A DNA stretch of 64,000 nt, from the NCBI GenBank assembly GCA_004335835.1, contig RWJK01001567.1, positions 99,632-163,631 of the forward strand. Direction: 5' to 3'. Shown here piece after piece: positions 1 through 60,000 of this stretch (position 1 is the first letter of the stretch; each line of letters opens with the position of its first letter). A program made the position numbers and the translations under genes. The stretch comes from Scenedesmus sp. ARA3. Taxonomy: Eukaryota; Chlorophyta; Chlorophyceae; Sphaeropleales; Scenedesmaceae. The notes below the pieces were generated by a model. It worked only from the letters and a program-made list of their open reading frames with translations, was not told the DNA's origin and searched no databases.

Positions 1-1750
1 TTCTCCTGCGTGTGCTGATTACTGTCTGCTGCAGCGATTTGTGGCGGCTGGACCTGTCCACCAACGAGTGGGACCAGCTGCCACTCAAGGGGCGCCTCAC
101 AAACCCACTTGCTGCTGAAACTGAAGCCACACATTAGCTGTACTTGTTACATTTCTGTTGCTGCAGCGATTTGTGGCGGCTGGACCTGTCCACCAACGAG
201 TGGGACCAGCTACCACTCAAGGGCGGGCCCTCAGCACGCAGCGGGCACAGGATTGCGGTGCACAAGGGGCGCGCACTGCTGTTTGGAGGGTTCTATGACA
301 ACGGGCGCGACGTGAAGTGAGTGATGCCTGCAATTGTGGGTGTTTGGCGGCATGCTCTGGGATTTGTGGCGGCAGGATTGTGTTAACCTCAGAGCAGGTT
401 TCTGCTGCAGCGCTTGTAGGGTTCTGCAAGCTATCCAGTGTAACATGCAACACGCTCGAAGCCGTCTTCTTGCATGTTGCCGTATCTAATGAAGCGTCAT
501 ATGTACTCGTACTGCGTGTGATTCTTCTCCAGGTACTACAACGACCTGTGGGCCCTGGATCTATCTGCGCTGGCCTCGACCCCACTGACTAAATCCCGAG
601 ATAACGTGACAAATTTTTGATTGTCCGATGTGTCGAGATCAACACTGTAACATATTATGCGGGTACTACAACGACCTGTGGGCGCTGGACTTGTCGGAGC
701 TAGCCTGGCTCCCGCTGGGCAGCCCGGGGCAGCACACCTGGGCGGCTTGCGCCAAGCTCGTGCAACTTATGTAGTGGATCATGCAAAAGAAACTGCTGAA
801 TGTACTGCATGTGGTTACCTTTGCAGGTACTACAACGATCTGTGGCAGCTGGACCTGTCTGAGCTGGCCTGGACCCCACTGGGCAGCCCGGGGCAGCACC
901 CCTGGCCTGCTGCGCGCAGCGGCTGCCAGATGATGGTGGCTGGGGATGTGCTGTACATGTACGGCGGCTATGTCAAGGTGGGCTATTATCCTTGGGTTTT
1001 GCTTTGTCATTTTATTTGTCGGCTGCCAGATGATGGTGGCTGGCGACACCCTGTACATGTACGGCGGCTACGTCAAGGTGGGATGTTATCATTGTTTAGA
1101 TCAGGCAGAAGACTTTAGATAGAGTTTGCTGCCAGATGATGGTGGGCGGGGATGTGCTGTACATGTACGGCGGCTACGTCAAGGTGGGCAGCTATTGTAC
1201 TTTGGATATTGTTGTGCTATTTTATTTGTTATATCTGTTACTTTATTTGTCGGCTGCCAGATGATGGTGGCTGGGGATGTGCTGTACATGTACGGCGGCT
1301 ACGTCAAGGTGCGCTGCCACAATGATTTTCAGCAATGTCCATAGGATTACGTGTACGTTTCCTGATCTGCTGCGGCGTGGTTTGAGCTGCTGCTTGGATG
1401 GCTGGTATGTCTGTGTCAGACAGCAGGCGCGGTCGTCTCGATGTGTCTTGCTGCATCGCGTCACGCAGGACGAGAATGACAAGGACAATGAGCTGGAGCA
1501 TGGCAAGGCATGTGTATCAACTTTTGCTGGTGTCACAGCACCAAGTGTCTCAGTCTTTTGCTGCGTCACGTCATGCAGGACAAGGATGACGAGGACGAGG
1601 ACCTGGAGCACGGCAAGGCGCACGCCTCACTCTTTTGCTGCATTGCGTCATGCAGGACAAGGATGACGAGGACGAGGACCTGGAGCACGGCAAGGCACAT
1701 GATGACATGTGGGCGCTGGACCTCAAGAGCCACACAGTGAGTGGCCACAA

Positions 1751-1782
<32 letters not shown>

Positions 1783-1935
1783 ACGATGATTGGGACCACC
1801 AGGCGTCGGTATGTGTACTGCCACAGGTTTGTAGCCTGCTTTTCCTTGTCTTGACGTGCCAAGCGTGGTGTGGCAAGGCACATGATGACATGTGGGCGCT
1901 GGACCTCAAGAGCCACACAGTGAGCCACCACAGCT

Positions 1936-1969
<34 letters not shown>

Positions 1970-4897
1970 TGTCTGCAGCACATGATTGTAGCACCATGCT
2001 GGCATCCGTGTTTGACCGCCGGTTTGTAACCCGCTTTTATGTGCCCTGGCAGGCCAACTTTGGTGTCGGGAAAGTGGGCATGGTGCCCGCAGCATGCCAG
2101 CTGCGCTCTTTATACTTGCAATTTAAACTATTGTTATAACGTTACTTTCAAACCTGTGCTGCTGCTGCCCTGCTGCTGCAGTGGGAGCGCATCAAGAAGG
2201 TGGGCATGGCGCCAGGCCCCCGCTGCTCCTTTGCCATGGTGCCACACAAAGCCAGGTGCGTGGCCTGGGCTGGTTTCTGTGGCTGAACGTTGCTGAAAGG
2301 GAGTGCTAGTTGCGCTAGTGTGCTCCGTTGCAATGGTGCCGCACAAGGCCAGGTGCGCTGAGGGGGCGAGCTGACACTGTTCAAAACAAAATTTGAAGTG
2401 CTGTCACCTACTCCTGTGCAGTGGTGCTGAACAAAGCCAGGTGCGCTGATGTTGCTGGTGTTGCCAAGGTTACGGCTGACGGTTGTTTGCTGCCAGGTTG
2501 GTAGGAGGGCAGTTCAAGAAAAGTGCAAGGTTTGGCTGCTGCCTGCTGCTGCTGCTGCTGCTGCTGCTGCAGGGCGTTCCTGTTTGGCGGCGTGAGTGAC
2601 AACGAGACGAAGCGCGGCGAGGACCTCAGCAGCGAGTTCCACAACGACCTCTACACCTTCAACTTCAACAACAGGTGCGGCCTCAGATGTTTAGTTGTTT
2701 TGTTAATTTGTTGTTATGTTTGTTATTTTTGATGCGGCCTGCTCGCCTTCAGCTATGACTTCCACAATGACCTCTGCACCTTCAGCCTCAAATATAGGTG
2801 TGTAACGGAACTACACAGGGTTTTGAGAAAGAGTTGGAGCAGGGTTGAGCAAGGCAGGTCAGGTCGAGATGTGCACAGGCGTTTATTCAAAATTGCATTG
2901 GTGTACAGCTCTCACTTGCCCGTTTTGCACTGTTTCCTGCGCTTGCGGTCTGCTGCACTGCAGGCGCTGGTTTGCTGCGCAGCTACGGCCGCCAAAAGAC
3001 TACAAGCAGCAGCAAGATGCAGCAGCAGCAGCAGCAGACGGCCAACCACCAGCAGCAGCAGCAGACACAGGTAGCCAACAACAGCAGCAGCAAGCAGCAG
3101 CGGCCAGTAGCAGCAGCAGTAGCAAACCAGCTTGCGGCGCCGGCAGCAGCGGCGATGTCAGCCGGGAGATGGCAGCGCTGATGGATGCTGGCCAGGACAA
3201 GAACTCAGCTATCTACCAGGCTGCGGTGCGCATCCAGTCTCGCTTCAGGTGAGAAAGAGCTTGGTAATGGACACTCGCGCGGTGGGATGCAGGCAGAGTT
3301 GCATGCAACCACATGCAGGAGCTGCTGCCGCTGAAAATGTGCAGCACAGCCGTGATAGCAGCTGCGGCATTTGCATCAGAGGTTTGGCAGCTCTGATGGA
3401 TGCTGGCCAGGACAAGAACTCTGCCATCTACAGGGCTGCAGTGCCCATCCAGTCTAGGGTCAGGTGAGAAAGGGCTTGGTGATGCACATTCACGCAGTGG
3501 GATGCAGGCAGAGATGCATGCAACCACATGCAGGAGCTGCTGCTGCTCTGGTGTGTAGGCAAGGAAAATGCAGCATGCCCATGTCAGCAGCTGCAATCTG
3601 TTGAGTCAGAGCTTTGCATCATCATCAGTGTTGGCAGCATGTTGCCAATCCAGCCATGGCGATGCGTTGCCTGCAGGGCCTACATGGTGCGCAAGGCGTA
3701 CAAACCGTACCAGCTGAAGAAAGCTGATACCTTGCTGCACCTGCTGACACTCAATAAACAAATGATCCGGATTCCAAATGGTTTGATGCCAACGCAGGGG
3801 CTACGTGGTGCGCAAGGCCTACAAGCTGTACCAGCTGGAACACTGCTGACACTTGGCAGTGTTCTTGAAACTTCTTCTATTCCTTTACTTAAGAATACAA
3901 CCCTTCTGCTCCTTTTGTGTGCAGGGGCTACGTGGTGCGCAAGGCGTACAAGCTGTACCAGCTGGGCGGCGTGGTCAGCGAGATCCTGTACAGCCCGGCT
4001 GCCTACGGCCTGGACATGAGCGCAAAGAACATGCCCAAGCCGCGCGCACGCATCAGCCCCCAGGTGCGCGCTGCGGCTGCTGTTACAGACATAGGTTCTG
4101 CACATTCAATCAAATTTGATCATGAAATGGCTTGAAATTGTGGTGTATCTCGGTTGTAAGTTTGCAGCCTACGGCCTGGACATGAGCGCAAAAAACATGC
4201 CCAAGCCGCGCGCACGCATCAGCCCCCAGGTGCGCGCTGCGGCTGATGATGAGAATGTCAACAGTATACATTGAAATGCTGTCAGCAACACACTTCATTG
4301 ACACATGTGCTGCTGGCAGCTGCAGTTTGAACATGCCCAAGCCTTGCGCACACATCAGCCTTGAGGTGCGCGCTGCCGCCAATGACAGTCCTGCAATCGG
4401 GACTGGACATCTGTGATCTGCGGCTGCCTGCCTGCCTGCCTGCCAACTGGCCATATGCTGACCCACTGTTTATACTGCCCGCTGGCTTGCAGGATGCTGT
4501 TGCCCATTTATAGCCTGCATGTTGGCTCAGACGCCTGTCACCTCTTACACCTGCCTGCCTTCCTGCCAGCATGCACAATCGCCTGCCGGCTGCTTGCCTC
4601 AAACATATCTTCATCATGAGTCGTTCACTCGTCAGCGCCACCATTGGATCTGTGAGCTTGCAGGTTGCTGTTGCCGGCAACACGCTGTGGCTGCTGGGCG
4701 GCGTGGTGGAAGTCGGGGAGTCAGAAATAACATTAGATGACATGTGGAGCCTTGACCTGGTCAAACTTGATGGCTGGCAGCTGGTCAAAGAGAACACGGT
4801 CGGGGAGGAGGTCTTCAAAGCAGCAGCAGCAAAGGCGGGTGCTGCAGGCAGCGACGACAGCGAATGGGAGGATGCATCTTCTGATGAGGAGGATTGA
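1..4897 (+). CDS. Kelch-repeat protein, KLHDC4/KEL3 family, 5' end outside window
   Basis: Eight exons can be joined in phase: 167-316, 827-977, 1656-1736, 2182-2255, 2573-2674, 2964-3248, 3925-4063 and 4664-4897 (TGA stop). The N-terminal exons lie before position 1. The order of kelch blades follows KLHDC4/KEL3: DLWRLDLSTNEWDQL, SGHRIAVHKGRALLFGGF, YYNDLWQLDLSELAWTPLG, SGCQMMVAGDVLYMYGGY, an acidic DKDDEDEDLEHGKAHDDMW loop, RCSFAMVPHKARAFLFGGV, FHNDLYTFNFNNRRWF, then NTLWLLGGVVEVGESEITL near the end. That the family forms a kelch beta-propeller is known; its biochemical role is poorly defined. Between the propeller and the last blade lies an alga-specific insert, a Gln/Ala/Ser-rich stretch followed by IQSRFRGYVVRKAYKLY, which fits an IQ calmodulin-binding motif. 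The protein ends in an acidic tail (EWEDASSDEED). All introns carry exon-edge copies. Family assignment is firm; exon choice among the copies is inferred from splice phase. Confidence 0.85.
35..104 (+). repeat. Copy of the 5' half of kelch exon 167-316
   Basis: The acceptor ctgctgcag and the first 20 or so codons of the exon at 167 (DLWRLDLSTNEWDQLPLKG) occur first here and then break off. This is the first example of the exon-edge duplication seen across the window. Confidence 0.85.
531..1310 (+). repeat. Exon-edge copy array around kelch exon 827-977
   Basis: Copies of the first half (YYNDLWALDLS...) start at about 532 and 661, upstream of the full exon. Three copies of the last half (GCQMMVAGDVLYMYGGYVK plus a gtg-type donor) follow at about 1018-1077, 1128-1187 and 1249-1309. 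Coding parts are well conserved while the intron sequence between copies differs. Confidence 0.9.
1470..1925 (+). repeat. Exon-edge copies around kelch exon 1656-1736
   Basis: First-half copies of the acidic exon (DKDDEDEDLEHGKA-like) lie at about 1470-1510 and 1577-1621. A last-half copy (GKAHDDMWALDLKSHT followed by gtgagc) lies at about 1872-1924. A (GCA)n run follows the donor of both the real exon (about 1754-1782) and this copy (about 1938-1970), so the copied unit includes the start of the intron. Confidence 0.85.
2325..2800 (+). repeat. 3'-edge copies of kelch exons 2182-2255 and 2573-2674
   Basis: MVPHKA plus a gtgcgc donor recurs at about 2333-2353 and, more degraded, at 2421-2442. 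FHNDLYTFNFNNR plus donor recurs as FHNDLCTFSLKYR at about 2757-2798. Confidence 0.75.
3388..3465 (+). repeat. 3'-edge copy of kelch exon 2964-3248
   Basis: The end of the exon (ALMDAGQDKNSAIYQAAVRIQ..., then gtgagaaag) recurs here with substitutions that change the IQ pair to PIQ. The intron piece after the donor (gagaaag.gcttggt.atg.aca.tc.cgc) is copied as well. Confidence 0.85.
3677..4365 (+). repeat. Exon-edge copies around kelch exon 3925-4063
   Basis: Upstream first-half copies encode YMVRKAYKPYQL (about 3677-3720) and GYVVRKAYKLYQL (about 3799-3838). Downstream last-half copies encode AYGLDMSAKNMPKPRARISPQ (about 4167-4229) and a decayed NMPKPCAHISLE (about 4330-4364). Confidence 0.85.
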
Positions 4898-7793: not shown

Positions 7794-7837
<44 letters not shown>

Positions 7838-8237: not shown

Positions 8238-11200
8238 GGATGGTCGAACGAGCTTGGTTTTGATGCTGCGCTGTGGTCACATGATGCTTGGGCATAGAAA
8301 GGCTCCAGCGCGTGGTGCACCTTCACCCCTGCCATCTGCTGCATCAAGCTCTTGGGAATAATCCCCCTATGGGCCTCTCGTTGGCTCCTGACTGGGGTTC
8401 CCACTCCTCGTTTGAGTGGAGCATGTAATGTATTGTCACAACAAAATGCAACATGTAGCATAACAAGTAACAACAATGTAACAAGATAAAGCGTACCTGT
8501 CTTGTTTTTCAGCTCAATCACCAGCGCAAAGAAGGGCTCAAGTGCAGGGTGCACCTTGACTCCTGCCATCTGCTGCATCAGGCTCAGCGCCTTCTCAGCC
8601 CACACAAGCGCGTCACCCCACCTGCGCAGCAGCAGCAGCAGCAATCATGCTAAGTTTGTTATTTGTTCAGCAGGCTGACGAAGTGGGGCCCAGAGTCAAG
8701 CATTCCTCTGATCCAAGACAGCTGAAGCTAGCTTGTGTGAGTCAGCATCACTACCCACAACAACCGATGCATGCCACAACCGCTGCAGGAAAGCATACAA
8801 AACAACGCAGAACGGCAAAACTCACCGCTGCGCCTCTCCCAGCACGTCAGCCAGGGTGCGTGCCAGCATCACGCCGCTCTGGTTGACCGGGCCCNNNNNN
8901 NNNNNNNNNNNNNNNNNNNNNNNNNNNNNNNNNNNNNNNNNNNNNNNNNNNNNNNNNNNNNNNNNNNNNNNNNNNNNNNNNNNNNNNNNNNNNNNNNNNN
9001 NNNNNNNNNNNNNNNNNNNNNNNNNNNNNNNNNNNNNNNNNNNNNNNNNNNNNCCCAGCACGTCAGCCAGGGTGCGTGCCAGCATCACGCCGCTCTGGTT
9101 GACCGGGCCCTCGCTCTGGCGCTCGTTGATGCTGTACAGCTGCTCAAACAGGGAGGCGGACGTCTCCAGGTTGCCCGCCTGGCGGTGGCAGGTGGCCAGC
9201 GCGGCCATTGCGGAGGCTGCATTCAAAAATAAGGTGCAGGTGACATTGCAGACAGCATTTAGGCAGACACACTGGCAGCAGCCAAAGGGTGAGAGGCAGG
9301 ATACCAAGAAAGAGGTCTCCTGCTTGCCCGCCTGGCGGTGGCAGGTGGCCAGCGTAGCCATGGCAGAGGCTGCAATTAAATAATAGGTGCAGAGGCACAA
9401 AATGCGGCAGACAGCAGGTAATCAGAGGTGCAGGACAGTCAGGCAGACGTCTCCAGGTTGCCCGCCTGGCGGTGGCAGGTGGCCAGCGCAGCCATGGCAG
9501 AGGCTGCAGCAAGGTGGACATGATGCAGAGGCACAACAGGCAGCAGACATCAAGCAGTCAGAGGTGCAGGAGAGTAAGGCAAAGAGGCTTGGTGGGTTGC
9601 CCGCCTGGCGGTGGCAGGTGGCCAGCGCAGCCATGGCGGAGGCTGCAGCTGGAACATGAATTGCATTAGTCATGCAGGCGCAAGGCGGCAGCTGCACATT
9701 TGCAGCACTGATGCCAACAGAGTCATGGTATGAGTTTTCAGCTGGATTCACTCACAGGCCTCGGGGGTCCCCTCCCGAAACTTGTCCATGGCCAGGGTCC
9801 ACTACTACTTGCTAGTGGGCATGTTGGTGTGCACTGATGCCAATGAGTTCAGTGGTGATAAGTGAAGCTTTATGGGTGGAATGTATGTACTCACAGGCCT
9901 CGGGCGTCTCCTCCCCAAACTTGTCCACGGCCAGGGCGTGTGCGCCCTGCAGCACCTCCACGGCGCGGTCAAAGGCCTTGGCCTTCATCTCAAGACGCGC
10001 CAGCTCAATCTGCAGAGAGCATACAAAAGTGGATGGTTTCACTTTGGTGGAAGCGAGCAGCAAGCAACCTTTTAAAGTGCCAGCAACGGCAGTACATGCA
10101 TACAAGCACAGCCTCAGCAGCCATCTGCACTCCACAAGCAAGAAGCATACCAATCCCACCACTTTCACGCACTTCAAACCCTTAAACAATCAAACATGCT
10201 CAGATTACGCACCTGCACGCGGATGCTGGCGGTGTGTGCGCGCGTGCTGTCAATCGCCAGCATGGCAGCCATCTCAGGGCTGCTGGCCTGCTTGGCTGCT
10301 GCTGCTGCTGCTGCCGCCGCCTCCTCACTGCCCGGCTTGAGGCCCTTGGCCACCTCCTCGGCCTCCTTGTCATCAGCAACCTGAAAATAACAGTTAAATT
10401 ACAGTGTCACGACAGTGGTTGGTAACAGCTGGGCAAGAATGCGGTGTAAAACTGGATAGCAACATCACTGCATACAATTGAGAATGATCAGGACGATGAG
10501 AGGTGCAAGCCCTTTTGGATGTGCAAAGGATGAGCACAAAATGTGATACTGTTGCACTGTTATATAACAGTCTCACCTTCTTGATTGACTCGATGCTGCC
10601 ATTCAGCAGCTCCCTTGCAGCATCACGGTCACCCAGCTGGTCAAGAGCATCCACGAGGTTACCACGTGCCAGTGTTGTGGTGGCGTGTGCTACGCCAAAG
10701 TGCTGCAGGGCCACGTCCATGGCCTTCTGGTGCAGCTGCTTGCCCTGCAAAAGCAACACAAGTAACAGCTTTTGAATAGTGGTGCGACAGCTGGCCAGCC
10801 AGTAAGAGGTGTGTGCCACGCCAAAGTGCTGCAGGGCCAAGTCCATGGCCTTCTGGTGCAGCTGCTTGCCCTGCAAATGTAACACAAGTAACAGCTTTTG
10901 AATAGTGGTGCGACAGATGGACAGCCAGTGGGAGGCGTGTGCCACACCAAAGTGCTGCAGGGCCATGTCCATGGCCTTCTGGTGCAGCTGCTTGCCCTGC
11001 AGGAAAAGTAACAAAGTAACAGCGTTTGAAATGTGGGCGCGACAGACGGTGAGGTGCAGGCAAGCCGGTGACCCAGCTGCAGCAACGACACTATGACCAG
11101 GGTAAGGAAACCCCTGTGTATACAAAAATCCTGGTCGTTCAACATGTACAGCAATTGTTTGCTAACGGTAACAATCAGGGGAGCTGCATCAGCACGAGCT

Positions 11201-12320
11201 ATCATCTGCTGCTGCCGCACCTCCTCGTGCAGCTCCTGCTTGCGCAGCACCGCGCCCATGTTGTTGGACAGCTTGATGTACAGCGCGTGCTGCCCGCCGG
11301 CCTCAGCAGCGTCCAGCGCAACCTGCAACCAAGATAAAGCACAATGCAGAGGATACATGTGAGATGTTGTTGGACAGCTTGATGTACAGCGCGTGCTGCC
11401 CGCCGGCCTCCGCAGCGTCCAGCGCAACCTGCAACCAAGATGAAGCACAATGCAGAGGATACATGTGAGATGTTGTTGGACAGCTTGATGTACAGCGCGT
11501 GCTGCCCGCCGGCCTCAGCAGCGTCCAGCGCAACCTGCAACCCAGATGAAGCACAATGCAGGGGATACATGTGAGATGTTGTTGGACAGCTTGATGTACA
11601 GCGCGTGCTGCCCGTCAGCCTCCGCAGCATCCAGCGCAACCTGCAATTAAGATCAAGCACAATGCAGAGGATACATGTGAGATGTTGTTGGACGGCTTGA
11701 TGTACAGCGCGTGCTGCCCGCCGGCCTCAGCAGCGTCCAGCGCAACCTGAGGATGAGCGGAATGACATGATAGGCTATGCATGTGAGTAGCCTGCCAATT
11801 TTGAGGTGTTGCACTGCAGCTCACACGCCAGCTTTGACACCACCTGCCCCAGCAGCGTGCTCTGCGGCCCATGTATCATCAGCCCGTGTATCAGCAAAAG
11901 CCGCTGCAGACAAAAGCAAGCGCTACATTGTTTTAACCCTTTAATGCTGCCACACCACAGCTAGCTGTGCAGCACTGCAAAAGCTGCTGCGCTCACCTGC
12001 AGCGCGCCTGTGGCGTCCACCAGCTTGTCACTGGCATACAGCTGCTGGGCAAATCGACGTTTCAAACACATGTGTAGCACGTTACTAGCGCTGCCACCTG
12101 CCTTACCTGCAGCGCTTCCTTTGCGTCCACCAGCTTGTCACTGGCGTACAGCTGCTGGGCAAGTTGACATTTCGAACACATTTGTAACATGTTACTAACG
12201 CTGCTACCTGCCCCACCTGCAGCGCTCCCTTTGCGTCCACCAGCTTGTCGCTGGCGTACAGCATGTCAGCCAGGCTGCTGGCCACCTCTGCAATGATCTC
12301 CGGCCGAGCAAGCCCGGGCT

Positions 12321-12359
<39 letters not shown>

Positions 12360-15300
12360 AGTTCAGCATCATGAGCATCATGAGCCAGGCTGCTGGCCAC
12401 GTCCCCGCAATGATCTCCGGCCGCGCCAGCCCAGGCTGCGGCAGCAGCAGCAACAGTGTGACACTTGGTGCGTTATAGAAATGCCATGCAACAGGAGCAG
12501 CAGCAGCAGCAGCAGCGGCGGCAGCGCACGATGCTGCAAGCAAGTCTGCCCTCGTGCTAGACCACCCGTCTGGACATCACAAAGACCAAGCATGTTTGAC
12601 TCTTTGTGCTTACACTGTCTTCAGCTGGTGCCAAGACCCACACAGACCTGCGTTCAGCCAAACTCAACAATCAACGCTGCACTGGACCTATTAAGCTCAC
12701 AACATGCCGCACCTTGGCTGTGACTGCCTCCATCGCCTTGCGCTGGAACTTCTCTGCCGCGTCCTTGTTGTGCTGCACGTTCCATGCCACAGCAGCCTGG
12801 CGCATCAGCTGCTCAGCCTCCTCCTCGGCAGGGCTCAGCTGCGGCTCTGCGCATATACAAGTGCATATACAAGCAGATTAGAAACAAAAAATGTCCGGGA
12901 AAGTCAAGAGCAGCACTGATGCAAGGCGCATCAGCTGCTCAGCCTCCTCCTCGGCAGGGCTCAGCTGCAGCTCTGCGTACAAAATATGAGGATCACAGAT
13001 AACAGCATGAGAAAGGTGGAAGCAGCAGTTGTGGGAGGCGCAACAGCGGCTCAGCCTCCTCCTCAGAAGGGCTCAGCTGGGGCTCTGCGTACATAGTAGC
13101 AGACAGGTGGACAAACATAGTCTGTGGTGAGGGTGCCTGAAACAGTGCGTCGGCTACTCAGCCTCCTCCTCGGCAGGGCTCAGCTGCGGATACACAGTTG
13201 AAATGAGGATACAAATGAGTGCGATGGACGACTAGATTGCAGCAGCGGTCCTGGAGAGGGTTGCACGCAATGAGAGGCGAAAAAATGATGCTCCCCTAAC
13301 ACGTGCCCCCCGACCCTTGACTTGGAAAAGTAACACAAAGCAACAGCATTCAAATGCGCACCCTCAGCCGCCTGCTGCTCAAACAGCACCACGTTGCCAT
13401 CATCATCCAACATGCCGATGTCTTGGCCCGAATCGTCCAGCACACGGCAACCAGCACCCCACAATGAAATTTACACAAAAGTAACATCATTAAAATCCTC
13501 ACCCTCAGCCGCCTGCTGCTCAAACAGCACCACGTTGCCATCATCGTCCAGCATGCCGATCTCCTGGCCCGCATCATCCAGCACACAACAACCAGCGCCC
13601 ACACTAAAAAGTAACACAAAAGTAACATCATTCAAACGCGCACCCTCAGCTGCCTGCTGCTCAAACAGCACCACGATGCCATCGTCGTCCAGCATGCCGA
13701 TTTCCTGGCCCGCATCGTCCAGCACACGGCAACCAGCACCCCACAAAGAAATAACACAAAAGTAACATCATTCAAACGCGCACCCTCAGCTGCCTGCTGC
13801 TCAAACAGCACCACGTTGCCATCATCATCCAGCATGCCAATTTCCTGGCCCGCATCGTCCAGCACGCGGCCGTCTGCGTGCAGCGTGCCCAGCGTGTTGC
13901 CTGCCTCATCAACAACGGGCAGCGTCTCGCCCTCTGCCAGCTCAATCAGGCCCTCGCCATCCTGCAAGCAAGCACAATCAGATTATGTTGTTGTCAATAT
14001 GCTGGATTAGAAGAATCATCAGCCTTTCCTCCCACTGGCAGGCTCTTGCTTTAGGCCAGCATGAGGCCGGCTGTATCCTGCAAGCTAGTCAACAAGGAAA
14101 CACAGCAGTGCATGATGGTGTGTCAGCAGGTGCAGCGTGCCCAGCGGTGTTGCCTGCCTCATCCACCCATGGCAGCGTCCCGCCCTCTGCCAGCTCTATC
14201 AGGCCCTCGCCCTCCTGCAAGCAAGCACAGTCAGAATAAATGCTTGTCAGCATGCTAGATTACAAGAATCATCAGCCTTCCTAACCACTGGCAGGCACTT
14301 GCTCCTAGCCAGCATGATGAACTCTGCATCCTGCAAGCAGATGGACAAGAAGACATATTGCAGTGCACAATGGCTTGTCAGCAGGTGCAGCGTGCCCAGC
14401 GTGTTGCCTGCCTCGTCGACCACAGGCAGCGTCTCGCCCTCGGCCAGCTCAATCAGACCCTCGCCGTCCTGCAAGCAAGTTGGTCAACAAGAAAAACACA
14501 GAAGTGCATCATGGCTTGTCAGCATGTGCAGTGTGCCCAGCGTGTTGCCTGCCTCATCAACCACTGGCAGCGTCTCGCCCTCTGCCAGCTCAATCAAGCC
14601 CTCGCCGTCCTGCAAGCAGGCAAGCAATATGTGTGTGAGGTGCTATAGTACAAGCACCATATGCTTTTCACCACTGGCAGGCTCTTGCTCTTCGCCTGCA
14701 TGAGGCCCGCTGCATCCTGCAAGCTAGTTAACAAGAAGACATATTGCAGCGCATCACGGTGCGTCAGCAGGTGCAGCGTGCCCAGCGTGTTGCCTGCCTC
14801 GTCAACCACAGGCAGCGTCTCACCCTCTGCCAGCTCAATCAGGCCCTCGCCATCCTGCAAGCAAACACAGTCGAATCAAATGCGTGTAAGTATGCTAGAG
14901 TACAAGATTTCTCCTTTCCAACCACAGGCAGGTTTTTGCTCTTGGCCAGCATGATGCCCGCTGCATCCTGCAAGCAAGTTGGTCAACACAAGAAAACACA
15001 GCAGTGCATCATGGCTTGTCAGCAGGTGCAGCGTGCCCAGCGTGTTGCCTGCCTCGTCCACCACTGGCAGCGTCTCACCCTCTGCCAGCTCAATCAGGCC
15101 CTCGCCATCCTGCAAGCAAATCAGGCAAAATGATATTGAGATTCAACGCAGCATTGCCTGCCTCGTCCACCACTGGCAGCGTCTCGCCCTCTGCCAGATC
15201 AATCAGTCCCTCGCCGTCCTGCAAGCAGATGAGCAGTGCAAGCATGTTGATAAAACATAGTACAGATGCCCAACCCATCGACCACATGCAGGGTCTCCCC

Positions 15301-41131: not shown

Positions 41132-43393
41132 ATGGCCGGCAAAAAGAAAAACCCTGCAGCAGCTGCTGCTCCCGAGCCCGCTCCGGAGGTGGACGGGCCC
41201 GTGCTGATAGTGCTCAAGAAGCGCCTGCGCGCTGCCAACAAGAAGCTGCGGAAGATTGAGGACGTGGAAGCTGCTGCTGCCACCGGCAAGGAGATCAATG
41301 AGGAGCAGCGCGCGCTGCTGGCGGGCAAGCCCGGCCTGCAGGCGGTCATAGACGAGCTGGAGAAGCTCTCCACGCTGCTGTGCCAGGCGCTGGGTGATGA
41401 GGCCACGGTGCACGAGCAGCACGGCTACGAGAAGGCCATGGCGGAGGTCAAGCAGCAGGAGGCAGAGCGCCACGCCAAGGAGGCCATGGAGGCAGCTGCT
41501 GCTGAGGCAGCAAAGGCAGCAGACAAGGTGGCAGAGGCGGAGGAGAAGCACGACAAGGCCACAGTCACGGAGCCCAAGGAGCCCGAAAAGCCGGATCACA
41601 AGCCAGTGGTGGAGAAGCTGCTGCAGCTGCTGTACTTTGCGCAGGTGCGAGCCATGTTTGCTGTCCTGCAAGAGGTTGGCAGCGGCAGTACAGTGCGGCG
41701 ATCTGGGCGGTTGCAGCGCATGCCTGCCAGCAGCTCGGCTGAGATGTTTTGCTTTCCTGCAAGGGTTGAGATAGCAGCAGCATGCATGATCCTGTGAGTC
41801 TTTGGTGTTCTGATTGGGCAGCAGTACACTGCAGCAGCGGCTGCAGTTGCACTGGTGACAGCGCAGCACTTACAGCGGCACTCATGGCTTACACGTGGCT
41901 CGATCGCCCATGCAGATGCATTTGCATTGCAGTGTAGGTTGTTGCAGCAAATTAGACGATCCAGAGCCTCTCAAGCAATGCATGGGGGCATGACAAGATG
42001 CTGCTGCTCAGGCGGCTGTGTCAGCAAAATCTACTTGTAACTGCCAGATCACGCATGACATGAGCCTCCCGTTTGTCAGCAGCTGGCCCATTTGCAAAAA
42101 TGCTGTTGCTGGCTTTCTATTTCACTGCCGACCTGTGGCGCTGCGCCGCACACACCTCCTGCAATCTTTTCCTGCAAACCTTCCTGCAAGCGCAGCTGTT
42201 TGACCCTGAGAAGGGCTACTACACCCACGTGGAGCGCAGCGCGTGCGCAACCGTGGCTCCTGAGGTGAGGCGGCGGCTGCAATCAAGACCTTTCAATACT
42301 GTGACTGTGACAGCAGCAGCAACATCAACAACAATGCAGGCCACATACCCCAGCACAGCCGCCAGCAGCAGCATCCTCGAATTGCACGCATTATTGATCT
42401 GTCCGTCCTTCGCTGTGCACCCTTAGATGCCATCCTGACTACTACTCCTGCTCTGCTGCCCTCTTCTGCTGCCTTCTCTGCTGCTGCTGCACGCTTTGCC
42501 GCATGCCTCGTGGCACCACCTTGTGCTACACCTTGTCTTTGCACCAACCTTTGCAGCTGAGCGAGCAGGACCTGCTGGGCTTGGCGGCTGCGGGGCGGCT
42601 GCTGATGGCGCGGCCCTATGGCTCCCGCATGAACCACAGCCAGGGCGTGGCCAGCGCCATGGCGGCGGCACAGGTGCGCTGCTGCTGCTGCAACTAGAAA
42701 GCAGTGCTGCTTGCCAGTAGTACTGTGACATTTGTGTAGGTAGGCGCAGGTATGTGCAGTGGCGTGGCTGTGATTGTGCTGCCATGCTTTTGTGCGTATG
42801 AACAGCTTTTTTTCACACAGCCAGGGCGTCGCCAGCGCCATGGCGGCAGCACAGGTGCGCTGCTGCTGCTGCTGTGCTGCTGCAACCAGATAGCAGGGCG
42901 TCTTGCTGGCGGTCGTGCTGTGACGTTTGCGTATGTGAATGAAGGCATGTATGTATTTCAAGCGTTGTGGCCGCTGCTTGTGCTACGTTGCGTTCTGCGT
43001 GAAACAGCTGTTTGAAAAGAAACCGCTGCGTGCGGGACAGCTACGGAGTGTTGCAGTGAGCGCTATTCAAGCCATCTCAATGGCTCTACGCTGCCGCTGC
43101 TTCTGCTGCTGCTGCTGCTGCTGCTGCAGGCGTACCTTCAGGCTGAGGATGCTGAGGAGGTCAAGGAGGTGCCTGGGCTCACCGGTGAGGCTTGAGGCTG
43201 GCAGCAGCAGCAGCATCAGGAGCAGCATCAGCAGTGGTGCAATGCATTTCCAGCTGCAGCAGCAGATGGCAGCAGCACAGCAGTTAGCAGACTTGCAAGC
43301 GTTAGCAAATGCAGCAGCAGGTGGTGCCTAAGCGCCTGTCGTGGATCGCCATTGCCCCCTCTGCGCAGCACTCACCGTTCATGCTCCACCACC

Positions 43394-43434
<41 letters not shown>

Positions 43435-43787
43435 CGGCCTGATGCGCAAGAACCTCACTGCCCTGCTGGCCTCCAAGTTCATGGCCCTCACCCCTGAGAT
43501 TGCACTGACGTTTTTTGCCCTGCCACCGCCGCTGCTGCTGCTGCTGCTGCCTTTTTCCGGTCGTCCTGGTGCGCAAGAACCTCACTGCGCTGCTGGCCTC
43601 CAAGTTCATGGGCCTCACTCCAGAGCTAGAACTTACCCTTTTTGCCCCGCCGCTGCCGCCGCTGCTGCTGCTGCTGCATCTCCTTCCCCAGTCGTCCTGG
43701 TGCGCAAGAACCTCACTGCGCTGCTGGCCTCCAAATTCAAGGGCCTCACCCCAGAGATTGCACTCACCCTTGTTGCCCCGCCGCTGC

Positions 43788-43820
<33 letters not shown>

Positions 43821-46006
43821 GTCTCCTTCCTCAGTCGGCCTGGTGCGCAAGAACCTCACTGCCCTGCTGGCGTCCAAGTTCATGGGCCTCACTCCAGAGA
43901 TTGCACTGATGCCAGCCATGCCATTGGCCCCACCACCTCACATGGCACATGGCCACCCACCACACCCCCACATGGCACCCCCAGCAGCAGCAGCAGCAGC
44001 GCCAGGGCCTGCAGCAGCAGCAGCAGGGCCGCACGGGCACCCGCCGCCGCCGCACCCAATGCACCTGGCGCCGCCTGCAGCAGCAGCAGCAGGAGTGCCG
44101 CCTGCTGCTGTGGCTGTGCCGCCACCTGCAGCAGCAGCAGCGGGGCAGGTGGTGCCTCCAGGACCACCCCCTGCAGCAGCAGCTGGCCAGCAGCAGCCAC
44201 GGGGGCCCCCACACCCTGCTGCAGTGCCGCCGCCAGCAGCAGCAGCAGGAGGCGCGCCTGCAGGGCAGCCGCCGGCGGCTGTGCCAGCGCCTGCAGCAGC
44301 AGCAGCAGCAGGTGGGCCCAAGCCTGGTGAGTGTGCTGCTGTGCTGTGCTCCTATGTTGTGCTGCCGTGCTTGAATTGTGGCTTGACAATGTTTGCATAG
44401 CCCTGTCCTGCCCAGCGCATTGATGCTAGCAGCAACAACAAGGCCACATGTGCAAGGCTCTTGATAGATTGGAGCGCTAATGCTCTGCCCATGACTCTGC
44501 TGCTTTTGTTCCTGTGTGCGTTTGTACTGCTGCCGCTGCAGCTGGCGTGCCGCTGACTGTCAGTGACCTGGAGCAGTCACTCTTCATGCGCCATGCCTCA
44601 CCAGCAGCAGCAGCAGCACCAGAGCCCAGCAAGCCAGGCACGCCACCCATGCAGCAGCAGCAGCAGCAGCAGGCACCAGCTGCGCCCCCTGCAGCAGCAG
44701 CGCCAGCAGCAGCAGCAGCAGCAGCAGGACCTGCTCCCGGCTACCCGGCCCCGCAGCAGCAGCCCAGCAGCTACTACCAGCAGCCACACAGCAGCTACCG
44801 CAACCCGCCAGCAGCAGCAGCGCCAGCAGCGGCACCTGCACCAGCAGCAGCAGCGCCAGCAGCACAGCAGCCACCGCAGCAGCAGCAGGGCGTGTACCAG
44901 CAGCGCAACGCGCCAGCAGCAGCGGGGCCTGCAGCAGCAGCAGCAGCAGCAGCAGCGCAGTATGTGCAGCAGCAGCGGGCTCCTGCCCCTGCAGCAGCAG
45001 GCAGTGGGGCGCCGGGTGCCCCAGCAGCAGCAGCAGCAGGTGGTGCTGCAGCTGGCGGTGCTCCTGGGCAGTCCCAGCAGGCTCGGCAGTACATTGCTGT
45101 GCCAACAACCAGCGGCAGGTGAGGTGCTGGGCTTGTTCAGAAAACAACAGTACAATCAGTTGCATGCACGCAACCTATTAGTACATCCTATATGGTTGTG
45201 TGTTCTTCTGTGCTTTGCTACAACTGCAAGCAGGCAGCAGGTGTTGTGTGCAGGACAGTGCGCGTGGTTTTGCTGTGTGACAATGTCAGCACCTGCAGTG
45301 CGTCAAGCTGGTCTGGCAACTGGCTGGCAGCGTTTGCGTTGGTGTGCAATCGACGGACATCATTTTGGGGACACACCTTTTGCAGCAGTATATATCCTGC
45401 CCGACGTGTGCTTAACCTTACCCCGTTCCTGCAAAGGTGGTGGCAGCCAGGCAGGCTTCAGTTCGCAGCAACCCTCCTTTGCCTTCTGCTGTGCTGTTTC
45501 TCCTCACCACACCTTCCTCATGCACTGCATCTGTGTTACCTGTCATTTCTGCTTTCTCTTCTGCTTTTGTCATTCTTCGCAGGGGCCGCTACAGGGACCC
45601 TCCAGGTGGCGCCAGGGGCGGCGGCTTCTCCGGCAACAACAGCAGCAGGGACGGCCCAGGCAGCAGCGGCCGGCCCGGCGGTGGCGGCGGCGGCCCAATG
45701 GGCGGCCCACAGCGGGACGGACCACAGGGCCAGGGACAGGGACCCTCTCAGGGTGTGTCCCGGGGAGGCCCCGGCCCGCAGGGACAGGGCCAGGGGCCGC
45801 CACAGGGCGGCGGCAGCGGCTATGGAGGGCCGAGGGCTGGAGGGGAGGGTGGCAACTGGGGTGGCAGCAGCAGCAGCAGGGGCGGCTATGGGGGTCCGAG
45901 GGGTGGCGGTGGCCCCCCTAGGGGTGGGGGTGGGTTTGGCGGGCCGGGGCGTGGGGGCCCGGGACGGATGCCTGGCGTGGCAAACGGGCCGATGGCTGCG
46001 AGCTGA
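41132..46006 (+). CDS. Caprin-like RNA-binding protein with RGG-type tail
   Basis: Seven exons join in phase: 41132-41644, 42196-42264, 42557-42673, 43130-43184, 43835-44326, 44542-45118 and 45583-46006 (TGA), giving 748 aa. After MAGKKKNPAAAAAPEP, residues about 25-80 (VLIVLKKRLRAANKKLRKIE; EINEEQRALL; LEKLSTLLCQAL) match the coiled-coil start of the Caprin-1 dimerisation region. A helical middle follows (LQLLYFAQLFDPEKGYYTHV; LSEQDLLGLAAAGRLLMARP; KNLTALLASKFMGLTPEIAL). The second half is Ala/Pro/Gln-rich and ends in a Gly/Arg tail with GRYRDPPGG, GGYGGPRGGG and GGGGFGGPGRGG. Animal caprins bind RNA through such tails and build stress granules with G3BP; a cytoplasmic RNA-granule role here is inference. 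Start choice: first ATG of the exon, in a ccatggccggc context. Confidence 0.75.
42812..42860 (+). repeat. 3'-edge copy of Caprin-like exon 42557-42673
   Basis: HSQGVASAMAAAQ followed by gtgcgctgctgctgctg repeats the exon end, donor and first intron bases. Confidence 0.9.
43432..43765 (+). repeat. Three upstream copies of the first half of exon 43835-44326
   Basis: Units encoding RKNLTALLASKFMGLTPE start near 43447, 43573 and 43705, each after a CTG-rich tract. Only the third keeps an AG acceptor, and only the fourth (the real exon) opens into a long frame. Confidence 0.9.
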
Positions 46007-52829: not shown

Positions 52830-55800
52830 TGAGAATTCTGCATGGTTCGTGGCTCAAAAACACAGACTATCGCGGAGCAGGGCCGATGCTGTTGCGTCAA
52901 GCTCAGCGTGAAGGCGTACTGCGGCAGGGAACACGATCCTAAACTTGCGTATTGAGCACGGCGTTTGATGAAGTGTTTCTCCAAGAAATGTTATTTTCTT
53001 GTGGAAAAAGAGCATAATTTGGCTGCAACACCCCCGGGGTGATCGTTTGTCTGCTGGTGACCAATCCAAGGTTAACCTTGGATAGATCGAGCTCACACCA
53101 TGCTGATGAACGTAGCTTGCACAGGTGGCAATGACATCAATGCACTTGACATCGTACTCTTGTCGTTCTGCCGCAAAGGTAGATGTCCTGTCACAAAGAG
53201 GGGCGGGGGCGTAATCCCTCCGGCTGATCACACAGCGACAACCACGCAACAACCATCCTCTGGTGGTGGCCTTGCATTGCACTTTGCAGATGTCTTTGCT
53301 TGACACCAAATGTAACAAGCATTCTTAGACCCTCAACAACCATCACAAGCACTCTTGACCTGACAGATCCTCCCCTGGATAGCCATATGTAGTGCATGCA
53401 TATGCATGCGGAGCGGGCCATCAGGCGCCCTTTGCCTGGTGCATGCCAACGCTGTGGTTTCAACGTCTTACTGTGGCACCACCATCACAGCCTACATGGC
53501 GCTGCGCGTGCACTGCACCTGCCGGCAGTGCAAGCAACCAAGCACTGTGCACCAGCATCATCATCCAATACAACACAATAATGTGTTGAGGATTGCAACC
53601 CCCCTGCAAGCGCTATGCACCCGCATCGTCATCATCCAATACTATACAATACTTTGAGGATTAAAACCTCCCTCAGGCACAAGCGCAGCGAGCCGATGCT
53701 CCGCTTATGAGGATTAGCGTAATTGTACCCAGTCCTTCCGTCATTGGTTGGGCAATCGTAACCACCCACATCAAACAGCACACACCACACAATGCATGGT
53801 GCTATGGCCCATCCCATTGGCAATGACCTGGCAAGTGCAGGACAGGGCGACTTGCTTATAATGCGACGTGGTTTGAAACCACTCGACAGTACGTACGTAC
53901 AACGTGCATGAGCGTCACCGCCTGCATGCAGCTGCTGACAGAGAGTTCGCTATTGCCTGTAAGCGTTTGACCGAAGTGTTGGTCGGAGCTGTGTGCTGAC
54001 TACCGCAGCCCCTAACACCAACACAGTCTACTACAACGACCACTGCGCACGGAGACCTGCGCGAGGCGGTTTGTGTAACATTGCTGCACAACACAGCAGC
54101 AAGGCCCCCACCCCTCCCATCCGCTTCCACCAAACAGCACCGTTATACCAGGCACAAAGGGTAAAAATAACTCCACAACGGCGGACACCCCGGGAAGAAT
54201 AAATCCACAACCGCAGGCATACGCACTCAAGCAAGCAGCAGCATAGCACGGACGCCACATGTGGCATCTGTGCCCGCCATGCTAGCACAGCCTGTGCCGC
54301 TCGTCTGCCTGGATGCCCGGCTTTTCCCCAACACACTATCTACCATAACGTGCAGCAGCAAGGCCCCACCCCTCCCGCCCGCTTCCACCAAACAGCACCG
54401 TTATACCAGGCACAAAGGGTAAGAATAACTCCACAACGGCGACACCCCGGGAAACATACCTCCGCAAGCGCTGGCACACGCACTCGAGCAAGCAGCAGCA
54501 TAGCACGGACGGCACATGTGGCATCGGCTTCCTCCATGCTAGCACGGCATGTGCCGCCCATCTGCCTGGATGCCCGGCTTTTCCCCAGCACACTTTTCCA
54601 CCATAACGTCACCTGTTCAGAAAGAAAAACCACCAGAACGTGCAAGGGTTCAAGCCTGTCAAGCACGTGGCAGCTGGGGAAAAGCCCACCCCAGCTGCCG
54701 AAGCTGCTCAATCGCTCAGAACACGCGCAGCACTGACACAGCTATCAATGGACAGTTTTAGGCATGGTGAAATGCACAACCATCCACCCTGCAGGAAATG
54801 CTGGTCCACAAGCCCCCCTGCCCGAGGCTCCTGGCACTCCGCTGTGTGTCCCAGTAGAATGCAGTGCTCGTCTGCTTGCATGCCTACAAACACAGGCCCT
54901 CAGTAAACACACACAACCCTTGCAGGACAATTCAGCCCTGCGGCAGCAGCTGCCCAGGCAGACACAGCAGCCAACAGGGCCACAGCCAGAGCAGCGGACT
55001 GCCTGCCGACGCCAGCATAGGTTGCGCGCACCAGATATAGTAATCTGTGCTCAAGTCGACACCCGAATGCAGCTGATGTGACGCCTAATATCTGGCATGC
55101 GGATAAGCTCACACCTGCTAATGCAAGTTGGGTGCGCCCATGGGGTCATGCATTTGGTCAACTCCTTGTTTCCACACATCACATAACAAGGCATCTCAAG
55201 CGGCGCCGCATCTGCCTGCGGCGCATCCCTACATGCCAAAGCAGGTGCGCACCAACAGTTGTGCGCACACGTGCGTTTGCAAAAGCAACTTGGCACCTGC
55301 AGGCGCCAAACACGCGCGCAGTAGCTCTCGCCAGACCCATGATGCACCCTGCAAACATTTCACGAAGTGCCCGTCTGCATACAGCAAACTGCCAAACAGG
55401 GGCAAAGTCAACAAGCTAGCCACACGATTGCAGAAAACACTTGCGGCATGCCCGCCTCCTCAAATGGTACGGCCGCACACTTGAGCAGCAGCAGCAGCAA
55501 CAAGAGGAGCACGTGCTGTGCAAAGGTTGCTGCGGTTTGCAATGCCGCATGCGCAGGGTTGTGATGCAAACTGATGCAATGGGGCGCCAGGCCTGAGGAG
55601 CAGATCCACAGAAGCACGCAAAGCCAGGCAAACAAGCAAGGCTGATGAGCAATCACTCAGGCAAACCTTTTCAGCCAAACCTCTGAGGCAAACCTTCAGT
55701 GCAAGCCAGATGAGCAGAAACAGCACAGCTGAGACAGGCATCCTGGCAAAGCCGGCCATACGGGTGTTCACAATGCTAGCAGCCTACGCGTTGTGTGAGA

Positions 55801-56150: not shown

Positions 56151-56224
56151 GCCGCTATTTATGGATGCTCAGCCACCCAACTCTGACACCCCTGCTGCAA
56201 ACCTCTGCTGCACTACCGGAGGAC

Positions 56225-56785: not shown

Positions 56786-56810
56786 CTATATTGCACCTGA
56801 CCCAAAGACG

Positions 56811-56915
56811 GCACATGTTGTGGGATCCCAACGCGACGGAACAGATCGCAACAGACGCAAAGAGAGCACATGTTGTGGGATCCCAACGCGACGGAACAGA
56901 TTGCAACAGACGCAA
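56811..56915. repeat. 55-base tandem duplication
   Basis: gcacatgttgtgggatccca...cgcaacagacgcaa begins at 56811 and again at 56866, with almost no divergence. A third gcacatgttgt fragment is near 56978. Confidence 0.9.
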
Positions 56916-57032
56916 CTTCAGGGTGCTCATGAGACATCCTGAATGCAACCTGACAGACTGCAACATACTCAGAAAGAGCACATGTTGTCACCCGCTCAAA
57001 TATAACAACTGCACGCCGAAATGCCTGAAATC

Positions 57033-60000
57033 TCACCACAAGGGCTGTGTCTGGGACCCCGGGTATGGTGAACCCTGCTGCTGGCCCCACAGCTGGTACT
57101 GCTGCTGCTGCTGCTGCTGCTGCAGTTCCTGCTGTTGCAGTTGCTGCGGCGCCACAGCAGCAGCTTGTAACTGCATCAACTCCTGCAGTTGTGCACCCTG
57201 CGGCGCATAGTTGGCCAACCACTGCTGCTGCTGCTGCAGCTGCTGCTGCTGCTGGTAGTCTGCAGCTGCACCAGCAGGCATCATCATCATGTTGCCGGCT
57301 GCCGCACCCGGCTGCATCAACAGCCCTGTGCCAGCCGCGCTGGCCCGCTGCTGCTGCTGCTGCTGCTGCTGTGCTGCTTGCTGCAGCATCAGCTGTTCAA
57401 GCAACGGCTGCAGCTGCTGAACCTGCTGCTGCTGGTGCTGTGGCTGCTGGCGGTTGATTGCTGCTGACATCGCTGCCACTTCATCGTACAGCCCAGCGTT
57501 GCTCTGCAGCTGCCCGCCTGCCTGCAGCTGCTGCTGCAGCCATGTTAGCCCTGGTGCCTGCAGTGCGGCAGCAGCAGGCTGCATACCAGGCACGGCAACG
57601 CCAGACATGAGCATGGCCTGCTGCTGCTGATGCTGTTGCAGCTGCTGCTGCTGCTGTTGCAGCTGCTGCTGCTGTTGCTGTTGCAGCTGCTGTTGCTGCT
57701 GTTGCAGCTGCTGCGGCTGCTGCTGTGCCGCAACATACCTTGGGCTAGCAACCAGGCCAGATCCAGCACGCGGACTCAAGCCCAACAAGACACCTGCTGA
57801 AGAACCCGGCACAGCTGCTGCTGCTGCTGGTGGTGGTGGCATCTGCATCTGCGCCACTGCACCTACCACGCTGCTTGCAGCACTTGAAGGGGCGCTCTCT
57901 GCCGGCCCGGCTGCTGCTGTTGCCACAGCTGCTGTAGGAATGCCCAGGTCTGGAGCAGCACGCCGCAGCAGCGGCTGCTGCTGCTGCGGCGGCACACTGC
58001 CAGCGGCAGCATGTGGCTGCGGGCGCAGGGGTTGCTGCAATGCAGGCTGCTGTCCCTGGGCCTGCACCTGAGTTGGCTTTGAAGGTGGCTGAGAGCGGAT
58101 GTGCTGCTGCCGCTGCGGCGGCTGCTGCGCCTGCGGCTGCTGCTGCCGGGGTGGCACCAACCGCTGCGGCTGCTGCGGCCTCTGCTGCTGTTGCGCTGCT
58201 GGCTGTGCCAGCTGCTGCCGCTCCGGTGGCTGGCCCTGCAGCCCCTGCTTATGCTGCTCCTGCTCCTCCTCTTTGTGCTCTGCCTCTACGACCCTGCATG
58301 TCATACGCAATCATCAACCGTTGCGACAGCTTGCCGAGCAGTAGCATAGCAGTCTGCATGGCAGTCTGCGTACGTCGACCAGCTGTATTCATTGGTGATG
58401 TCAGCAGTGTTGTGTTCGCTTCCTCAATTCAAGCTGCCACATAATGCCAGCAATACAAAACGTAACAGCCTGGGCTGGACAAAGAAGCCACAATGAGCCA
58501 GCAAAGTGATACTGAGCACTGCTTGCTGCTGCTTCGTGCTGCTGTGTGCTGCTGCAAGGCTTGCTGCTGCTAGCGCTGCTGGTCACAGCTCCGACAATGC
58601 TGTGCGCTGCTGCTGCCCGCGCCTGAGCTCCTCCAGGGTGTGTGCGAAGAAGCACAGCAACCGGCAGTTTGCAAAGCATTTTGCATAGCACCGTGCTGGG
58701 ATCCCCGACCACCCACACACCCATCCGTCCACTTAAGTGCTGTTGCTGCTGCGCCACCCACGCACCTGAGCTCCTCCAGGGTGTGTGCGAAGAAGCACAG
58801 CGGCCGGCAGTTTGCAAAGCATTTTGCATAGCACCGTGCTGGGATCCCCGACCACCCACACACCCATCCGTCCACTTAAGTGCTGTTGCTGCTGCGCCAC
58901 CCACGCACCTGAGCTCCTCCAGGGTGTGTGCGAAGAAGCACAGCGGCCGGCAGTTTGCAAAGCAGTTTGCAGAGCAGTTTTGCAAAGCAGTTAGCAAAGC
59001 AGCTTGCATGATGCCCCCACCCACCCCCGCACCTGAGCTCCTCCAGGGTGTGTGCGAAGAAGCACAGCGGCCGCGTGCAGGCCACGCCGTGCTGGCACAT
59101 CTGCGTGCGGAAGCGCTTCGGGTGCAGGTGGAACTCCTGCGCAGCGGCAAGGCAGCGCAACAGGAAAGCGCAGCAGTGCAAAAACAGTGCAGCAGTGGGA
59201 GCCTAGAAGATAGAATAAGAAGAGCACGGGACACATCTGTGTGCGGGAGCGCTTCGGGTGCAGGTGGAACTCCTGCGCAACGGCAAGGCAGCGCAACAGT
59301 ACAGGGCAGCAGCGCAACAGCACAGTGCAGCAGTGAGAACGGAGAAGCTGAAGCAAGAAGAACACGTGACACATCTGTGTGCGGAAGCGCTTCGTGTGCA
59401 GGTGGAACTCCTGCGCAGCGGCAAGGCGGCGCAACAGTGCAGTGCAGCAGTGCAAAAACAGCGCAGCAGTGAGAGCCCAGACGCTGAAGGAAGGACAACT
59501 GACACATTTAAGTATGGCAGCGCTTTGCGTGCAGGTGGAACTTCTGCGCCTTGCTGCTGCTGCTGCTGCCGACACTCACGTAGACGTTGTGTGTGTAGCT
59601 GCAGCTGTCGCCGCGCGGGCAGCTGTGCCCTTTCTTGTCATCGGGGCAGGGCAGCGGCTCATAGTCAAACAGGCGGGGGTCGCGCCGGCGAGCCTTCTCC
59701 CGCGGGTGCGCAAACGGGCACTGCAGCGAAAGAGCCACAGAGGTGTGCAGCGGAACAAATGTGGCACGAGCACGCGGTAGAGGTGTCCAGGTCAGCATAC
59801 AGGGGTGGTGTGGGCATGATGTGCAACCTACTGAACACCCACAAGAGGCAGCACCATGCTTGCAGGACAGCATGTACAAGCGCACAGTCACACTGCTTGT
59901 TATCGCTTAGCCAGCCACAGATAATGCCTGTGCTACTCCTGCTGCCGCACACTCACCGTAGACCAGTCGTGCGGATGCTGCGCTGTGCAGTTGGCAATCT

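Follow-up and report, generated by a model that had tools for sequence, protein, structure and literature searches.

Minisatellites under concerted evolution are direct arrays that expand and whose inner units are more alike than their ends. The same three features are found in the subject of this work, a set of arrays in introns of Scenedesmus sp. ARA3 that consist of partial copies of the adjoining exons and were studied in a 64-kb stretch (the window) of one contig (RWJK01001567.1) of an 87.27-Mb assembly of 1,567 contigs. Unlike in minisatellites, the limit of similarity here often lies at a splice junction, a point absent from an earlier note made on this DNA. The nearest published event comes from a potato RdRp gene, where a duplicated tandem segment spanning an intron-exon boundary gave rise to a new intron by way of a cryptic donor (Ma et al. 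2016, PMC4974935). As described in that report, the duplicated segment comprises the 3′ side of an intron and the 5′ side of an exon, the duplication is local and direct, and the splice signals come from the parental junction, all of which applies to our arrays; however, the case is presented as one event in one gene, whereas here 49 of 158 internal exons have copies, which form arrays with a common step. Intron gain by AGGT-exon tandem duplication (Rogers 1989; Hellsten et al. 2011, both as cited in PMC4974935) is likewise outlined as a small tandem duplication within a gene, with one copy removed as an intron, but its unit lies inside the exon, whereas the present unit crosses a junction that already exists and makes its intron longer. 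Small direct duplications can also arise at DNA breaks through fill-in by Pol alpha-primase/CST, whose enzymology has been described for cells of human and mouse (Schimmel et al. 2021, PMC8355091); the abstract and introduction of that paper draw no link to splice junctions, and such fill-in is a candidate route for the present arrays. Among five green algae compared, Tetradesmus obliquus was reported to have the longest mean intron (462 bp vs 230-302 bp; PMC5966456). Judged by title and opening of the abstract, none of the matches listed in our literature searches, which mostly did not extend to subscription journals, describes this pattern in algae. As far as these searches show, the kind of event is known, and what is new is its density, its regular step, the junction-limited similarity and the retention of earlier exon states in the copies.

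A gene-structure hidden Markov model (HMM) trained on this genome (window, 10 kb of upstream flank and 18 sampled loci; 237,311 bases) was used to predict exons independently of the borders given in the earlier note, and 27 kb of interior stretches that took no part in the training were held out. Window included, this sample covers 0.3% of the genome; contig starts, which are possibly repeat-rich, make up 18 of the 21 sampled loci beyond the window's contig. Every internal exon of at least 40 bases was searched for matches within 3 kb, and the headline counts refer to copies in direct orientation with a non-coding target within that distance. Partial copies of the first half of an exon are termed head copies, and those of the last half tail copies. 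In all sets pooled, 58 head copies lay upstream of their exon and 7 downstream, and 30 tail copies lay downstream and none upstream. The corresponding figures were 34 and 4 for heads and 18 and 0 for tails in the window with its flank (37 internal exons), 19 and 1, and 11 and 0, in the 18 other loci (107 exons), and 5 and 2, and 1 and 0, in the held-out stretches (14 exons). At least one non-coding copy was present for 20, 25 and 4 of these exons, respectively. The earlier note had claimed that head copies lie only upstream and tail copies only downstream in most multi-exon genes, on both strands and in copies of different age, and had proposed a self-alignment scored for polarity. The polarity held in the window, its flank, the sampled loci and the held-out 27 kb, the pattern was present on both strands, and the copies did vary in age; "most" describes the exons of the window and does not extend to the sample.

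Six of the seven exceptions trace to two predicted exons that themselves belong to arrays: predicted exon 15471-15584, which duplicates the head of exon 13784-13961, accounts for four, and one predicted exon across a tandem array in locus L026 for two. The seventh is a 67% match in locus L022. Matches whose target overlaps a predicted exon were set aside; they comprised, in the window, 2 head copies upstream, 3 downstream and 1 inside, 2 tail copies downstream, 2 full and 14 inner copies; in the other loci, 1 head copy upstream, 1 downstream and 2 inside, 8 tail copies downstream and 2 upstream, 17 full and 174 inner copies; and in the held-out stretches, 1 tail copy upstream, 2 full and 19 inner copies. 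Full and inner copies with a non-coding target numbered 5 (all from 15471-15584) and 3 in the window and 3 and 9 in the other loci, with 2 full copies in the held-out set. Regarding orientation, self-BLAST of the window returned 104 direct and no inverted repeat pairs closer than 3 kb, and the direct/inverted numbers in the 237-kb set were 117/1 for exon-to-non-coding, 37/0 for intron-intron and 31/2 for intergenic pairs. The exon search, which is more permissive, gave 7 inverted rows out of 95 in the window, 73 out of 321 in the other loci and 14 out of 46 in the held-out stretches (94 of 462 in total); these 94 were all inner pieces, of which 7 had a non-coding target, and inversion of a head or tail copy was seen in none of the three exon sets.

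The polarity follows from the geometry of junction-straddling tandem duplication, and a new process is unnecessary. A tandem duplication with one breakpoint in an exon and the other in an intron leaves exactly one complete exon, and the partial copy has to fall to the intron side of the junction that was duplicated; the polarity is therefore forced. Among 20,000 simulated tandem duplications, 5,658 produced an upstream head copy, 5,794 a downstream tail copy and none a copy of opposite polarity; 1,590 involved the whole exon, 4,278 lay inside the exon and 2,680 touched fewer than 20 exon bases. The suggestion of the earlier note that the polarity calls for an unnamed process is thus superseded, since such duplication alone yields it and a single case, that of potato, has been reported (PMC4974935). 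Dispersed insertion of exon fragments was rejected, because, in contrast to the data, its simulation split the polarity 50:50 and yielded about half inner pieces. Tandem exon duplication leading to alternative exons, in which the whole exon with both splice sites is kept coding, is likewise unsupported in view of the few full non-coding copies and the frameshifts in copies; the rarity of full copies is not significant, as only about 1.3 would be expected among 43 edges.

We propose, with a probability of roughly 0.75, that these introns grow by recurrent tandem duplication of junction-straddling segments of about 125 bases, with expansion of the arrays, decay of the copies and an exchange that maintains their exon part, in line with the repeated junction duplication put forward in the earlier note. 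The duplicated unit would measure about 125 bases (most 95-140) and straddle one exon-intron junction. For a unit running from the intron into the exon, the upstream unit would hold a dead first half and only the downstream unit would run into the intact exon; for a unit that begins in the exon and ends in the following intron, the dead last half would fall downstream. Units inside the exon would usually alter the protein. An exon-recognising spliceosome could skip the dead halves, since each would own a single splice site. The arrays would then expand and contract into X(SX)n, with X denoting the exon half and S the spacer of intron sequence, and the copies would decay largely as non-coding DNA, retaining older exon states. 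Continued exchange of copies with the live exon edge, perhaps between alleles differing in copy number, may keep X similar after S diverges. Such a genome would be one where intron lengthening is readable unit by unit, with intermediates of different age and with earlier exon versions held in copies beside the living exon. It makes testable how the spliceosome ignores many intact half-exons and whether junction duplication sets intron length, and it suggests that gene predictors can swallow half-exons into proteins. The exons and copies of the window are listed below in window coordinates.

167-316 (+), kelch exon: head copy upstream at 18-91 (96%, period 133).
827-977 (+), kelch exon: head copies upstream at 509-587 and 658-752; tail copies downstream at 1020-1094, 1128-1229 and 1251-1315; GDV is encoded in the exon and two of these tail copies, GDT in the third, at 1042-1068.
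1656-1736 (+), kelch exon: head copies at 1448-1510 and 1549-1622; copy of the exon end at 1872-1965; HMM end at 1826, with an end near 1736 supported by a relative's protein (P0008, transcript-derived, judging by its name).
2182-2255 (+), kelch exon: tail copies at 2321-2357 and 2408-2445; upstream, at about 2055-2110, a decayed copy resembling the start of this exon, seen by eye only.
2573-2674 (+), kelch exon: tail copy at 2749-2800 (79%).
2964-3248 (+), kelch exon: tail copy at 3385-3523 with homologous intron; IYRAAV in the copy, IYQAAV in the exon.
3925-4063 (+), kelch/IQ exon: head copies at 3672-3716 and 3794-3838, whose spacers share little (one 11-base match, z 4.3); tail copies at 4164-4248 and 4329-4379, whose spacers are alike for about 16-19 bases past the donor.
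8826-9216 (-), TPR-gene exon containing an N gap: head copies at 9312-9392, 9435-9508 and 9595-9647.
9895-10009 (-), TPR-gene exon: tail copy at 9750-9797.
10577-10744 (-), TPR-gene exon: head copies at 10808-10929 and 10924-11045; spacers and outer flank homologous, a clean tandem duplication.
11221-11322 (-), TPR-gene exon: array of head copies to 11749, period 106.
12217-12318 (-), TPR-gene exon with the borders of the earlier note: end copies at 11994-12042 and 12047-12152, called as exons by the HMM; head copy at 12376-12456.
12713-12846 (-), TPR-gene exon: head copies at 12925-12977, 13037-13095 and 13147-13189; spacers without significant similarity.
13784-13961 (-), TPR-gene exon: tail copies in the interval 13326-13730; every one of the ten head copies that have a non-coding target is upstream, within 14130-15733.
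18329-18546 (+), exon: tail copy at 18676-18721 (96%).
22489-22562 (+), exon: tail copy at 22657-22718.
42557-42673 (+), exon: tail copy at 42816-42928, homologous spacer.
43368-43907 (+), array with a period of about 134, lying upstream of and including the head of the exon placed at 43835 in the earlier note; judged by eye.
59033-59136 (-), CCCH zinc-finger gene exon: head copies at 59232-59334, 59367-59470 and 59499-59549; tail copies at 58897-58949, 58754-58806 and 58616-58658.

Analysis of the window with Tandem Repeats Finder revealed junction-spanning arrays with periods mostly of about 77-143 bases and some of 255-386. The median of the nearest period was 133, with values of 120-140 at 17 of 43 edges and of 200-280 at 11 of 43. 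Copies and intervening spacers, related and unrelated spacers being counted alike, add up to 7,732 bases vs 24,911 predicted intron bases in the window and flank, about three tenths. Predicted exon 15471-15584 was excluded from the step, spacer, splice-site, codon-position and copy-history analyses, and 15829-16696 from most. The inner spacers of the X(SX)n arrays are often related to one another. Edges were classed by spacer similarity with borders at z 6 and z 4 that were our own choice, in a test that uses the nearest copy and in arrays often compares two inner spacers. At the 13 edges with homologous spacers (z of at least 6), spacer divergence was 1.89 times that of the exon half, near the factor of 2 expected if both spacers but only one exon half evolve freely; this class behaves as plain tandem duplications. 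At the 24 edges with weak spacers (z below 4), identity of the exon halves was about 90% as far as the junction, past which the match faded within a few intron bases. Neutral decay of plain tandem duplications explains the first class and fails for the second, and the ending of similarity near the splice junction in many copies is unexplained by the proposed duplication geometry. The step medians of the two classes were similar (126 and 123.5 with periods above 170 halved; Kolmogorov-Smirnov p=0.65), which leads us to think that both share an origin.

The array form X(SX)n, with an outer flank not significantly related to S in 30 of 48 arrays, also fits transposable or introner-like insertions whose long target-site duplications made X S X. 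Such insertions are nevertheless highly improbable here, given that 12 spacers from 12 weakly similar edges matched only themselves in the 87-Mb assembly (best candidates scored, very common words skipped) and that spacers inspected by eye carry only one splice site. An introner or transposon family was accordingly rejected for these 12 spacers.

The behaviour of the weak-spacer class could instead reflect a junction-bounded process that copies or refreshes only the exon half and a few splice-site bases regardless of the neighbouring intron, for instance from a transcript-derived template or by exon-limited exchange. Identity in this class was flat at about 0.9 over the exon half, 0.81 (AG) or 0.93 (GT) at the junction, 0.75-0.88 over the next three bases, then at most 0.60, and 0.23-0.31 at 30-45 bases (ungapped extension). 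In addition, outer flanks unrelated to the live intron end were acceptor-like, with a median position weight matrix score of 0.60 in 11 copies vs -1.42 for intronic CAG (4 further copies without AG were excluded). On the other side, the common step size points to one origin for both classes, the presence of AG or GT and a few bases beyond it in the copies indicates that spliced mRNA was not the template, and some residual similarity persisted near the junction, with p ranging from 0.0002 to 0.45 over nine settings (for edges with z below 3, of which there were 19, p was 0.0115 once 8 bases had been trimmed and 0.45 once 20 had been). We regard this process as rather unlikely. A related suggestion, doubtful at present, is that live exon and dead halves may swap or refresh exon sequence by junction-bounded exchange, each keeping its own unrelated acceptor- or donor-like intron end, so that strains might switch live edge and intron end with the protein unchanged. 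Recombination between diverged alleles or species as the source of the two intron ends is unsupported, because only 47% of the weak-spacer differences (65 of 138) are synonymous.

The copies themselves evolve largely as non-coding sequence, a conclusion supported by copy-specific changes at G/C sites, which were about equal at codon positions 1, 2 and 3 (33/687, 20/380 and 47/817). All 9 indels in the exon parts of 78 pairs break the frame, and frameshifts and stops occur in copies; the idea that the copies are coding sequence is unsupported by this evidence. The mismatch rates pooled over 71 pairs (0.062, 0.042 and 0.143 at positions 1, 2 and 3) would, in our view, combine synonymous changes of the live exon with unconstrained ones of the copies. 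At 21 edges with at least two copies, the live exon differed from every copy at 20 sites, 15 of them synonymous, and all 13 sites shared by only some copies were synonymous as well, which supports the view that copies preserve earlier states of the exon.

The kelch protein and its predicted T. obliquus counterpart (554 of 561 gap-free columns identical; 91% counting gaps) agree closely enough to assign this DNA to T. obliquus or a close relative, and their comparison bears on the same point. Six amino-acid differences separate the two, and a seventh stems from a mispredicted exon; two of the six fall within parts that have been copied, and in each case a neighbouring copy carries the residue of T. 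obliquus. The copy at 1042-1068, the nearest to its exon, has GDT as in P0001 (T. obliquus) and the proteins of two other close relatives, P0002 and P0008, and the live exon and the two outer copies have GDV. Similarly, the copy at 3426-3443 has IYR as in T. obliquus, and the live exon IYQ. Serial duplication at the exon edge would not give the GDT/GDV order, which fits an exchange between copies and the live exon; these sequences suggest such exchange without proving it.

Several observations weigh against growth by recurrent junction duplication with exchange. In the comparison of outer flank with inner spacers over 48 arrays, z was at least 6 in 11, 4-6 in 7 and below 4 in 30, and plain tandem duplication would have copied the flank too. 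Among 27 edges whose exon part is at least 90% identical, 15 had a spacer z below 4, whereas simulated neutral decay predicted 0-5% of such edges and reached 27-44% only with introns evolving four times faster than the copies inside them. Simulated whole-unit gene conversion and unequal exchange both gave 0%, and conversion that halts at mismatches produced 0-19% in 7 of 32 settings, those where X stayed at 0.85 or higher in no fewer than 16 of 100 runs (at most 6 runs did so in the other settings). Single-lineage simulations thus failed to reproduce an X that stays similar after S diverges, and neither gene conversion nor unequal exchange within a single lineage is sufficient for the weak-spacer class. 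Copy-specific changes at A/T sites were in excess at third positions (14/148 vs 7/287 and 19/587), so that the evidence for treating the copies as non-coding is not entirely clean; 9 of the 13 partly shared synonymous sites lie in one exon, 13784-13961; and the more distant relative Chromochloris (P0003) has GDV like the live exon, which makes the direction of the GDT/GDV change uncertain. Finally, the exon borders are HMM predictions without transcript support, and the HMM is not error-free, since it called one kelch tail copy, at about -294 to -236 relative to the window, as an exon.

The splice dinucleotide was intact in 76 of 86 copies vs 70.6 expected from copy age, and is not clearly conserved beyond the neutral expectation. 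The rows of decoy splice sites described in the earlier note are therefore often intact, but not clearly more so than age predicts. The same count speaks against a model in which copies are maintained by selection as functional alternative or regulatory splice sites. The outer acceptors do keep a pyrimidine content of 0.65, like real acceptors, vs 0.50 in the background; also against selection stand the copy-specific changes without clear codon bias at G/C sites, the frameshifts and stops, and the relative's protein P0008, which joins the exons without half-exons in the part compared by eye (its end runs into an apparent retained intron). We consider selection of this kind very unlikely.

An assembly artefact could account for some nearly identical arrays and for the N gap near 8895-9053, which is flanked by an identical 57-base repeat. 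It is nonetheless extremely improbable as a general explanation, and the earlier note had also called it unlikely: the majority of copies show differences of 2-20% and have flanks of their own, several contigs display the pattern, and a predicted T. obliquus protein shows an apparent trace of such a copy, WERVKKWERIKK. The few near-identical arrays are checkable only by reads. The N gap of the TPR gene, with its repeat within 8838-9110, is probably a scaffolding artefact.

Around WERVKKWERIKK, the T. obliquus protein P0001 appears to have swallowed a half-exon copy together with extra intron-derived residues, and such arrays may thus corrupt annotations. In the upstream flank (L005), at about -617 to -216 relative to the window, two more copies of the kelch exon end QERFMHFR follow the first on its downstream side, and the HMM took the last of them as the exon.

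Regarding the exons named in the earlier note, the HMM recovered 167-316, 827-977, 3925-4063, 10577-10744, 11221-11322, 13784-13961 and 59033-59136, as well as the starts at 1656, 2573, 2964, 22489 and 42557. The edge at 18438 is covered by the HMM exon 18329-18546, exon 12217-12318 is merged into 12217-12435, and the array at 43.4-43.9 kb with the exon at 43835, misread by the HMM, was inspected by eye. Six of the eight predicted proteins or fragments scanned match ordinary families (kelch/IQ, TPR, CCCH zinc finger, SLX9 and amine oxidase); the kelch/IQ protein is named KLHDC4 in a relative, and the amine oxidase gene sits in the upstream flank. Two other repeats were noted in the window, a CATATGG-type short tandem repeat at 22909-23016 within a predicted intron, and a two-copy tandem repeat at 54094-54609 (period about 257-259, 89% identical) where the HMM predicts no gene.

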